Below are positions 23,972 through 64,000 of a stretch of 64,000 nucleotides of DNA, piece after piece (position 1 is the stretch's first letter; the number at the start of each line of letters is the position of its first letter). The stretch is from Thalassolituus hydrocarboniclasticus (GTDB taxonomy: Bacteria > Pseudomonadota > Gammaproteobacteria > Pseudomonadales > Oceanobacteraceae): assembly GCF_025345565.1 (NCBI RefSeq), contig NZ_CP054475.1, positions 2,876,006 through 2,940,005 on the forward strand, written 5' to 3'. The notes beneath the pieces were generated by a model that was given only the letters and a program-made list of their open reading frames with translations, was not told the DNA's origin and did not search any database. The translations under genes and the position numbers were made by a program.

Positions 23972-23987
23972 TGCAGAGGACGTGCCA
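23972..23987 (-). promoter_or_regulatory. Sigma-54 promoter of the flgF-L block
   Basis: Minus-strand sequence TGGCAC-GTCCT-CTGCA matches the RpoN consensus TGGCAC-N5-TTGCW with the invariant GG and GC correctly spaced. It lies 67 bases upstream of the flgF start. An activator such as FleQ is expected from related bacteria. Confidence 0.85.
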
Positions 23988-24055
23988 AAACCATAAAAAC
24001 CATTATTTTCAATGACTTATGATTTATTGACGGTATCGGAGCGGAAAAAGCGTGG

Positions 24056-29457: not shown

Positions 29458-29473
29458 AGCAACCCCTGTGCCA
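29458..29473 (-). promoter_or_regulatory. Sigma-54 promoter of flgBCDE
   Basis: The minus strand reads TGGCAC-AGGGG-TTGCT, a perfect match to the RpoN consensus (TGGCAC-N5-TTGCW). A T-rich tract lies immediately upstream, as often found. Transcription would start about 25 bases before the flgB ATG. Confidence 0.93.
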
Positions 29474-29505
29474 AAAAAAATAATCCTTATTTTTCAGTAC
29501 GTTAG

Positions 29506-29532
29506 AAATAAAAAGCCGCCCTTTAAGGCGGC
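29506..29532 (-). terminator. Terminator after cheV-cheR
   Basis: Stem GCCGCC / GGCGGC with a six-base loop, followed on the minus strand by TTTTTATTT. It ends the cheV-cheR unit immediately before the flgB promoter. Confidence 0.88.
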
Positions 29533-61794: not shown

Positions 61795-62607
61795 GTGGAT
61801 CTCGATATTCTTTACCTCGATAACGAACTGGTTGTTATCAACAAACCCAGCGGCCTGCTGGTACACCGCAGCGAAATTGACCGCCATGAAACCCGCTTTG
61901 CCCTGCAGCTGCTGCGTAACCAGCTGGGACAGCGGGTGTACCCGGTTCACCGTCTGGATAAACCCACATCCGGTGTTCTGGCTTTTGCCCTGAGTCAGGA
62001 AATGGCCAGCCTGATCACCGATCAGTGGCGCCAGCGCGCCGTGGATAAACGTTATCTCGCCATCGTCCGTGGCTGGATGCCCGAGTTTATTCATCTTGAT
62101 AAACCCATGGCGCCACCGGTCGATAAATACGCCAAACACGAAAGAATCAAACCCGAGCAGGAAGCCATCACCGATTTCCGTTCGCTGGCCCACGCCGAAA
62201 TTCCGGTCTTTATCGATAAATACCCACAGTCACGTTATTCACTGGTTGAGTGCATTCCGCACACCGGACGGAAACACCAGCTGCGCCGCCATCTGAAACA
62301 CCTCAGCCACCCGATTATCGGCGATGCCCGCTATGGCAAAGGCCGCCACAGCCGCTATTTCCGCGATCAGCTACAGGCACCGCGTTTGCTGCTGCATGCC
62401 TCGCAGCTGACGATGAGCCACCCTGTCAGCGGTGAAACGCTGGTGTTCAATGCCCCATTGGATGGCATCTGGCGACGTCTGGTTCAGCACTTTGACTGGT
62501 ACGCAGCCCTGCCGGAAGCTCTGCGTTTTAATGAGCAGGATACGCCCCATCCATCGCTGGATTGTTTCCTGAATGTCACGGATGAGGACGACGAAGATGG
62601 CATCTGA
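61795..62607 (+). CDS. truC: tRNA pseudouridine synthase C (tRNA U65)
   Basis: RluA-family pseudouridine synthase of 270 residues. It has LDILYLDNELVVINKPSGLLVHRS at the N-terminus (given as ILYLDNELVVINKPSGLLVH), the catalytic HRLDKPTSG (Asp 55) and GRKHQLRRHLKHL. The combination with the RSEIDRHE segment points to TruC, which modifies uridine 65 of tRNAs. The start is GTG at 61795; the ribosome site is weak. It is followed by a hairpin and then the DnaA-box region. Confidence 0.92.
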   Translation: MDLDILYLDNELVVINKPSGLLVHRSEIDRHETRFALQLLRNQLGQRVYPVHRLDKPTSGVLAFALSQEMASLITDQWRQRAVDKRYLAIVRGWMPEFIHLDKPMAPPVDKYAKHERIKPEQEAITDFRSLAHAEIPVFIDKYPQSRYSLVECIPHTGRKHQLRRHLKHLSHPIIGDARYGKGRHSRYFRDQLQAPRLLLHASQLTMSHPVSGETLVFNAPLDGIWRRLVQHFDWYAALPEALRFNEQDTPHPSLDCFLNVTDEDDEDGI

Positions 62608-62628
62608 AGGGCCGGAAAAATCATCCAC

Positions 62629-62650
62629 AACGGCGCCGGGTCGCGCCGTT
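62629..62650 (+). terminator. Hairpin after truC
   Basis: Perfect 8-bp stem AACGGCGC / GCGCCGTT with a 6-base loop, 21 bases after the stop; followed by TCTGG, so T-run is poor. Confidence 0.6.
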
Positions 62651-62680
62651 TCTGGCTTGCTTGAGGTTATCAACATTTTC

Positions 62681-63485
62681 TGTGGATAATTCTGTTGGAA
62701 AGTTTCTGATAAGTGCCCGGAATCCAGTACTGATGCGGCTCTGAGTCAGATTGGCTGAAATAACAACAAAAGCCAAATCTTATGTAATTCAATGAGTTAT
62801 GCCATCCACCAGAATGTATTTCAGTTTTTTGACTTTTGAATGTCCGTTCAAAAAGCAGATACCACCGATGTGCATAACCCGTTCTCAGTGAGATTTTTAA
62901 GTCAAGAGGAAAAGAACGCCATTTAACGAAAAAATGTCCTCTGTGCCACTCCATCAGCGCCGTTTAAATGTCCACAGATTCTGTGCATAACTTTGTGAGT
63001 AAGCTTTTGGAAAGTCCCTGTTTTTCGCATAAACAGCGGCCTCCCGTTAGATTGTTTATTTTTTAACCAATATTAAAATCCCTTTACTTTCAACAACTTA
63101 CAAAAATCAATAGCCCTTTTGCCTATTTTTGAGCCAAATTACCGACAAAAATACCGCAGCAACTCCTGATGTGCATAAGATGCATCATCTGAGTTCATCA
63201 TGCGCCAAAACAGAGCCTGTTTGCGCTCCCTGCTGAAGCCTGCACGACAGCAGTCGGGAAAGGCTCTGCGCGGTAAGTAACCACTTCCTCTGACAATCTG
63301 TGGATATTTCCGGGGATAAAACCAGAGCAGAGCAATACGCTGATCAATATTTTTCTTTCGCCAGGACTGCGCAGTATCCGGCCTGTTCAGATAATTCTTA
63401 TAGAAAACAAACGCTTATAAATTTTAATACAAAGGTACTATTTTTTGGCGGTGCAGCAGTGGCCGTCTGCGCGCAGTGTGCATAA
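62681..63485 (+). promoter_or_regulatory. Cluster of six DnaA-box-like 9-mers in one orientation
   Basis: The 980-base gap between truC and dsbC has no convincing gene. It contains TGTGGATAA at 62681-62689; TGTGCATAA at 62869-62877, 62982-62990, 63170-63178 and 63477-63485; and TGTGGATAT at 63299-63307. These are the reverse complement of the DnaA box TTATNCACA, with one mismatch in the last listed. All six point the same way. A random kilobase would hold well under one. GATC sites are almost absent. It may be a second origin-like or DnaA-titrating site. Confidence 0.75.
63049..63163. other. AT-rich stretch within the DnaA-box region
   Basis: From TTGTTTATTTTTTAACCAAT to CAAAAATACC the sequence is markedly AT-rich with several A/T runs, in contrast with its surroundings. 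It lies between DnaA boxes at 62982 and 63170 and is the best candidate for an unwinding element. Confidence 0.5.
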
Positions 63486-63538
63486 CTTTATCTTGCCGGC
63501 TGAATTGCGCTCTTTCGCCGTTCCGGGCATACAGGCAT

Positions 63539-63563
63539 AAAAAAACCTCCCGCAGGAGGTTTT
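63539..63563 (-). terminator. Terminator after dsbC
   Basis: Stem AAAACCTCC / GGAGGTTTT with loop CGCA; on the minus strand a run of seven T follows. Confidence 0.92.
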
Positions 63564-63591
63564 CAGGTACTTCAACAGGCTGATGCTGAAA

Positions 63592-64000
63592 TCACATCAC
63601 GCCGAGGCGACGGGCCAGATCATCCGCCGGCATATAGCCAGGGAACAGACGTCCATCATCGACAATAATGGCAGGAGTACCGGTTACACCCACTTCCTGA
63701 CCAAGATCGTACTGGGCAGCAATTGGTGCACCGCAATCTTTGCTCTTATCCATCATCGCCACAACCTGCCCCTGCAGAGCGCGGTACTGGTCTTCCAGTT
63801 CAGAAGAACCACCGGACTGACGCAGGCGCTGACCCAGAATGCTCATATCACGCTGAGTATTCTTCATGGTGGTCATAGCCGCCTTACGGTCCGCCTGACA
63901 CCAGACATAGTTAATCTTGCGGTAAGAGTCAGTCAGCTCGCCACTGCGCGGATCTTTGATACCGGCACGTGGATAAGCCAGATAACGCACGGTAATACCC
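63592..64000 (-). CDS. dsbC: Disulfide isomerase DsbC, C-terminal part
   Basis: The frame runs off the right edge; 136 C-terminal residues are visible. They contain GITVRYLAYPRAG, YVWCQADRKAAM, the second DsbC disulfide-type Cys (KSKDCGAPIAA) and the cis-proline loop GVTGTPAIIV, followed by PGYMPADDLARRLGVM. DsbC is a periplasmic dimer that reshuffles wrong disulfides; the CxxC site and dimerisation domain lie beyond the window. An apparent start at 63990 is inside the gene (a Val codon GTG). Confidence 0.93.
   Translation of the reverse strand, partial: GITVRYLAYPRAGIKDPRSGELTDSYRKINYVWCQADRKAAMTTMKNTQRDMSILGQRLRQSGGSSELEDQYRALQGQVVAMMDKSKDCGAPIAAQYDLGQEVGVTGTPAIIVDDGRLFPGYMPADDLARRLGVM

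Follow-up and report, generated by a model that had tools for sequence, protein, structure and literature searches.

Probable tandem array of DARS-type DnaA-reactivating elements between truC and dsbC in Thalassolituus hydrocarboniclasticus

Introduction

The function of DARS, the sites that reactivate DnaA, has been worked out in E. coli, where DARS1 is active without IHF and DARS2 lies mid-arm on the chromosome. According to passages of PMC5742627, the defining feature of both is a core of three DnaA boxes (I-III) with equal spacing, of which box I is reversed. Passages of PMC4245941 state that DARS2 requires both IHF and Fis, and the cited part of PMC4585315 places datA always near oriC in E. 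coli. Passages of several papers also report DARS-like sequences in V. cholerae at the same places as in E. coli (PMC6090056), DARS-like sites in seven E. coli-proximal species (PMC8682772), DARS-like sequences in E. coli-proximal species (PMC4245941) and, citing Fujimitsu 2009, DARS-like sequences in 'many proteobacterial species' (PMC10380432). The sites in these passages are the same kind of element as the one described here, and the species named are enterics, Vibrio and Shewanella.

A literature search that covered few subscription journals returned no DARS paper for Thalassolituus or Pseudomonas and no recognised description of the complete module reported below, of its breadth or of tandem arrays, and the cited passages of PMC6090056, PMC8682772 and PMC10380432 describe neither the distal box, nor a tandem array, nor a truC-dsbC location. 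What is known is the occurrence of DARS-like sequences in many proteobacteria; the complete module, its breadth and the tandem arrays were not found described and are apparently new. Should the complete module prove to be the usual form in the class, the E. coli sites would be poor guides to the rest. Its computable signature would allow DnaA-recharging sites to be found, mapped and deleted in hundreds of species, and the reasons for the constant distance from IHF site to distal box, and for mid-arm tandem copies spaced by about 300 bp, become testable. The array itself is a candidate replication timer for marine oil-degrading bacteria.

Results

The densest DnaA-box cluster found in the genome lies between truC and dsbC

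Within the window, the whole 64,000-nucleotide stretch of DNA that was analysed, 805 bp of the gap between truC and dsbC contain five boxes that are exact TTATNCACA and a near-box, every one pointing the same way. The initial annotation had described six 9-mers here, and all were recovered where it put them: TGTGGATAA at 62681, TGTGCATAA at 62869, 62982, 63170 and 63477, and TGTGGATAT at 63299, in the same orientation throughout and with steps of 188, 113, 188, 129 and 178. NCBIfam agrees with its naming of the flanking genes, through best matches that in both cases fall below the curated cut-off:

61795-62607, + strand, truC, ending towards the array; best match NCBIfam TruC, 317.7 bits, cut-off 328
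63592-63999, - strand, C-terminal part of dsbC, ending towards the array; NCBIfam DsbC, 69.8 bits, cut-off 215; truncated where the window ends

The protein encoded by truC shares 98% identity with that of Thalassolituus alkanivorans. The gap has a GC content of 44% and, as had been noted, hardly any GATC (one, vs 4.9 per kb in the window).

Exact TTATNCACA occurs nine times in the window, five of these in the cluster, compared with a mean of 1.79 in whole-window shuffles. The 4.07 Mb one-contig genome contains 179 copies, vs 24 for the reversed pattern, and arithmetic from the genome-wide count gives an expectation of about 0.035 per 805 bp. Of the 122 genome sites of TTATGCACA and TTATCCACA (the C and G variants), five share this kilobase; the maximum elsewhere is two. 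The 9-mer is too rare to explain the cluster, which answers the genome-wide count that the initial annotation had proposed. With the T/A variants added, four boxes that differ in type and orientation formed a second cluster at 410314-410664 among the matches listed. The truC-dsbC cluster is the densest such DnaA-box site found in the genome.

DnaA is also able to regulate transcription, and in that capacity could point to a transcription-control region, or a small RNA, between truC and dsbC. The flanking genes converge, so that the gap holds no truC or dsbC promoter and transcription control is unlikely; a promoter search gave one promoter-like match vs 1.7 expected, and Rfam gave no family at threshold and one sub-threshold terminator-like match (STnc130, 63528-63562). 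We regard this explanation as highly improbable. A coding role for the small ORFs in the gap is likewise disfavoured, because the box distances shift in 1 bp steps among relatives.

The boxes are parts of a tandemly repeated module

The cluster boxes are parts of a tandemly repeated module of about 210 bp, in which boxes I-II-III (box I inverted) are followed by a GTYAGATTG block, then by an IHF-like site (+106) and, at +188, by a distal DnaA box. Of the three copies, those at 62667-62877 and 62968-63178 are strong and the last is degenerate. The initial annotation contained neither the inverted box I nor box III nor the IHF-like sites; the AT-rich middle that it did mention is where the Fis-like and IHF-like sites of copy B are located. 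Boxes were scored out of 8 positions against TTWTNCACA. R1 is a sequence-only model, run with cmsearch, of the 39 modules in alignment A1, which were taken from 44 modules after three were dropped for N, one as a duplicate and one for lying too near the truC end; a separate model was run with nhmmer. The features are as follows, with offsets counted from box II:

62667-62877, + strand, copy A, DARS-type module; R1 match 62664-62879, 120.8 bits (the copy itself is among R1's 39 rows); nhmmer 144.4 bits
62667-62675, - strand, copy A box I, inverted, TTATCAACA; 7/8 to TTWTNCACA
62681-62689, + strand, copy A box II, TGTGGATAA; 8/8
62693-62701, + strand, copy A box III, weak, TGTTGGAAA; 6/8
62745-62753, + strand, copy A conserved block, GTCAGATTG
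62787-62799, + strand, copy A IHF-like site, ATTCAATGAGTTA; 8/9 to WATCAANNNNTTR; +106
62869-62877, + strand, copy A distal DnaA box, TGTGCATAA; +188
62968-63178, + strand, copy B, DARS-type module; R1 match 62967-63180, 123.9 bits (also an R1 row); nhmmer 147.3 bits
62968-62976, - strand, copy B box I, inverted, ATGTCCACA; 6/8
62982-62990, + strand, copy B box II, TGTGCATAA; exact box
62994-63002, + strand, copy B box III, TGTGAGTAA; 7/8
63046-63054, + strand, copy B conserved block, GTTAGATTG
63054-63068, no strand assigned, copy B Fis-like dyad, GTTTATTTTTTAACC; 6/6 to GNNYANNNNNTRNNC
63088-63100, + strand, copy B IHF-like site, TTTCAACAACTTA; 8/9; +106
63170-63178, + strand, copy B distal DnaA box, TGTGCATAA; +188
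63299-63485, + strand, degenerate copy C; box II TGTGGATAT at 63299, distal box TGTGCATAA at 63477 (+178)
63405-63417, + strand, copy C IHF-like site; 8/9; +106

The Fis consensus GNNYANNNNNTRNNC was taken from a passage of PMC8682772. The box II repeat distance is 301 bp from A to B and then 317 bp. In copy C box I is unrecognisable (4/8); the copy was matched by R1 at 63289-63486 with 20.3 bits (E 3e-5, or 0.00114 in the genome search) and by nhmmer over its second half only (E 0.075). The pattern box - IHF - box occurs at exactly two places in the genome, both in the truC-dsbC array.

Module geometry is conserved downstream of truC in the family

The region downstream of truC was read in the best 30 of 55 genomes searched, all from the same family and including our own (L006, the window); four of the 34 family genomes searched (one genus, with truC about 50% identical) and 21 genomes of other families stood outside this reading. 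The initial annotation had made its proposal depend on conservation of the boxes in relatives, and boxes were present at all 30 loci, as pairs 183-190 bp apart (46 pairs). An IHF-like site lay at +104 to +107 from the first box in 44 of the 46 pairs, where shuffles of the inner sequence expect 0.2, and was absent from the second pair of L029 and the first of L032. Box I and box III were scored in 40 box-II anchored modules, six of the 46 pairs being left out for having less than 40 nt of upstream sequence. The inverted box I was found at -14 in 37 of these (mean 0.37 at other offsets) and the direct box III at +12 in 38 (mean 0.49). Because the A1 modules were picked by their box pair and IHF-like site, part of the conservation that A1 displays in these elements reflects the choice itself; box I, box III and the conserved block played no role in the choice.

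In the first-copy rows, which boxes and IHF site had helped to pick, mean pairwise identity was 0.98 for box II, 0.92 for the distal box and 0.74 for the IHF site, and 0.36 between the IHF site and the distal box. A perfect Fis-like dyad was present in 13 of 15 later-copy modules vs 3 of 29 first-copy modules, copies having been sorted solely by their order in the locus. In the window the scan for Fis sites ran as far as the IHF site and gave the perfect consensus in copy B alone, on the core side of that site.

Five exact boxes within 805 bp would also suit a passive site that titrates DnaA and has no catalytic role. Titration leaves unexplained why spacing is held to about 1-2 bp, why box I is inverted and why an IHF-like site is present, and we consider it very unlikely.

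Between the IHF site and the distal box of copy A, 33 bases (62822-62854) are identical in the four nearest loci (L006-L009), unlike the variable spacer around them.

Comparison with E. coli DARS1, DARS2 and datA

DARS1, DARS2 and datA carry no annotation in the E. coli record used and were located by neighbour genes and box geometry; datA was placed at the tRNA genes glyVXY (L036), which we take to be its site, in line with the title of PMC10950094. The core offsets of DARS1 and DARS2 in MG1655 are -14 and +12 (box I-II-III spacing 14, 12), the same as in the module, and both strong window copies have the three-box core with opposed box I. The sequence relation extends past the boxes, over about 150-160 R1 positions in both E. 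coli sites. For DARS1, in the bioD-uvrB gap (L038:1105-1262), R1 gave 49.5 bits; the match covers positions 4-160, takes in the AATTG block and reaches the IHF position. The nhmmer model gave DARS1 39.4 bits. The IHF position of DARS1 is degenerate (the TTTTAACTGGTTA region), unlike that of the module, and DARS1 is a single copy with other neighbours, whereas the array here is tandem and lies at truC and dsbC. DARS2, in the rppH-mutH gap (L037:3634-3782), gave 24.9 bits over R1 positions 5-164. Its AGTCAATGCATTA aligns to the module IHF site but lies at +95 instead of +106; the difference of 11 bp is about one helical turn. If this placing is right, AGTCAATGCATTA would overlap the IHF region footprinted in E. 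coli DARS2 as IBS1-2, for which the cited passages of PMC4245941 give no coordinates. Like DARS2, the module holds its IHF site at a fixed distance from the core, as seen in 44 of 46 pairs and, with 8/9 at +106, in both strong copies. DARS2 is not the tandem of two to three copies present here.

Several differences count against a DARS-type reading. Neither DARS1, which has no exact DnaA box at +188, nor DARS2, which has no same-direction distal box there, carries the module's distal box in the model alignment. DARS2 was missed by nhmmer at E<=0.1. The perfect Fis dyad is rare in first copies and misplaced relative to the essential Fis sites FBS2-3 of DARS2, which, going by passages of PMC4245941, lie across the IHF site from it. 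The known DARS sites of E. coli and V. cholerae have uvrB and mutH as neighbours (passages of PMC6090056), and neither gene flanks the array, which has truC and dsbC instead.

The layout is also partly shared with datA. Read in the same direction, datA presents an inverted pair, then at +93 its IHF site and at +162 a box that points the same way, an order like that of the module (+106 and +188), so that in both an IHF site stands between same-direction DnaA boxes; the distal box is a datA-like trait, missing at that place in the E. coli DARS sites. A datA-like site would hydrolyse DnaA-ATP in an IHF-dependent manner and thereby damp re-initiation. Against this, R1 barely matched E. coli datA, with 10.4 bits over box II and its flank only, nhmmer gave no match at E<=0.1, the box I-II spacing is 12 in datA and 14 in the module, and the array is not near oriC (see below). 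On balance a datA-like site is unlikely. The initial annotation had offered datA-like and DARS-like regulators side by side; the DARS-like half is supported by the I-II-III geometry and by the R1 matches to both DARS sites, and the datA-like half retains the shared layout and that low score.

Together, the box geometry, the spacing and orientation, the IHF-like site, the conservation, the match to DARS1 and DARS2 and the chromosomal position make it likely, as judged from sequence, that the truC-dsbC locus is a tandem array of DARS-type DnaA-reactivating elements.

The array lies mid-arm

The array is 1.13 Mb from dnaA in the 4.07 Mb genome, about half-way along a replication arm, which is a DARS2-type and not a datA-type position. 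Six genomes of the family, each a single contig that begins at dnaA, have it at 0.51-0.67 of the half-chromosome from dnaA, the place of the terminus having been checked for our own genome (G000) only.

DnaA boxes, an IHF-like site and AT-rich DNA are also what a second replication origin would offer, and an undescribed origin-like site was among the initial suggestions. Between 0 and 1.95 Mb the sampled GC skew is above zero; past 2.05 Mb it is below zero, on both sides of the array too; the sign changes near dnaA and at 1.95-2.05 Mb, and not at the array. The contig start carries dnaA and dnaN with two boxes. An origin at the array was rejected on these grounds and is almost certainly not the explanation.

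Relatives of the module are widespread

In tallies that always count our own genome and also take in partial matches, R1 matched 380 of 390 genomes in the order (E<=0.01; 365 of 375 outside the family), 322 of 369 in the class (E<=0.001) and 191 of 299 in the phylum sample. Many of the listed best matches span positions 4-218 and so include the distal box; others end earlier. Many of the R1 matches outside the class in the phylum rows come from one family (f240), some over the full module. The nhmmer model gave 44 matches at E<=1e-3 in 362 kb and none at E<=10 in the reversed sequence. A strict pattern of box I - II - IHF - distal box was found at 93 places in 74 of the 369 class genomes, while the reversed control gave 0 in every row. 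The strict pattern also misses the window copies, which weighs against the DARS-type reading, and gives 0 in the whole of our genome because its box I and II letters deviate.

Alignment A2, of 28 matches outside the core family set, has the consensus I-II-III, AAATTG, a TTTTNACCA stretch, TCAATAANTTA and TGTGCATAA; it is a biased sample, because its rows are the top-scoring matches. The GTYARATTG block (62745-62753 and 63046-63054), between the core and the Fis-like dyad, recurs in distant genomes, and AATTG is found in DARS1. Neighbours of the R1 matches differ among families (gpsA and flavin reductase, purL, dUTPase, transglutaminase, rmuC and others); no conserved gene neighbourhood was found among the matches outside the family, and many flanking proteins had no Pfam match. 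Since relatives of the module are widespread, the array may help to set replication timing.

It is conceivable, though rather doubtful, that the complete module represents the original switch for the nucleotide state of DnaA in Gammaproteobacteria and their kin. Such a switch would combine a DARS core with a datA-like arm, made up of the IHF site and the same-direction distal box, would usually occur in tandem, and could be shifted by IHF and Fis from recharging DnaA to silencing it and back. The E. coli sites would then be specialised remnants: DARS1 would have lost the arm, DARS2 would have altered it while its second copy decayed, and datA may be a further remnant.

Proposed action of the array

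By analogy with the E. coli sites, we infer that DnaA, IHF and Fis would bind the DARS-type array, that nucleotide exchange would take place there and that the tandem copies would act jointly. The encoded DnaA matches, over residues 408-500, the DnaA chain of PDB 1j1v (7e-44), presumably E. coli DnaA domain IV, and 17 of 18 relatives, our own genome among them, have a Fis homologue. ADP-DnaA would sit head to head on boxes I and II, as passages of PMC5742627 and PMC8682772 describe for E. coli, and also on box III. IHF would bend the DNA 106 bp from box II and so draw the distal box, together with Fis in copy B, towards the core. The resulting complex would let ADP go, and the freed DnaA could then take up ATP, making a replication start at oriC possible.

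Tandem pairs and related sequences elsewhere

Further R1 pairs in our genome lie at 410371 and 410640, at 3513442 and 3513699, and at 323536 with a weak partner at 323767; a match at 318673 stands alone. Pairs were also seen in other genomes, for example 381 bp apart in G639, 337 bp in G751 and 346 bp in G544, an observation that comes from the listed R1 matches and not from a survey. In the E. coli DARS2 region R1 found a weak second core (L037:3950-4092, 11.7 bits) 316 bp past the DARS2 core, which hints that DARS2 may be a decayed tandem pair.

The region 410371-410745, close to a gene for a Na/Pi cotransporter, is a DnaA-box cluster whose pair of DARS-core-like matches scored 20.4 and 48.8 bits. 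More partial DARS-core-like matches in our genome lie at 323536-323852 (upstream of argS), 318673-318776 (between an ILVD/EDD dehydratase gene and an HNH gene) and 3513442-3513791 (between a PAP2 gene and an Ada-like gene). In the window, weak R1 matches at 23985-24034 and 29471-29518 (15.2 and 16.3 bits) cover the IHF-like half only and are probably AT-rich IHF-like sites. A CCTCCCGCAGGAGG hairpin after dsbC (63540-63563), probably a terminator, is 91% alike over 32 bases to 3895854-3895885 of the genome (L002).
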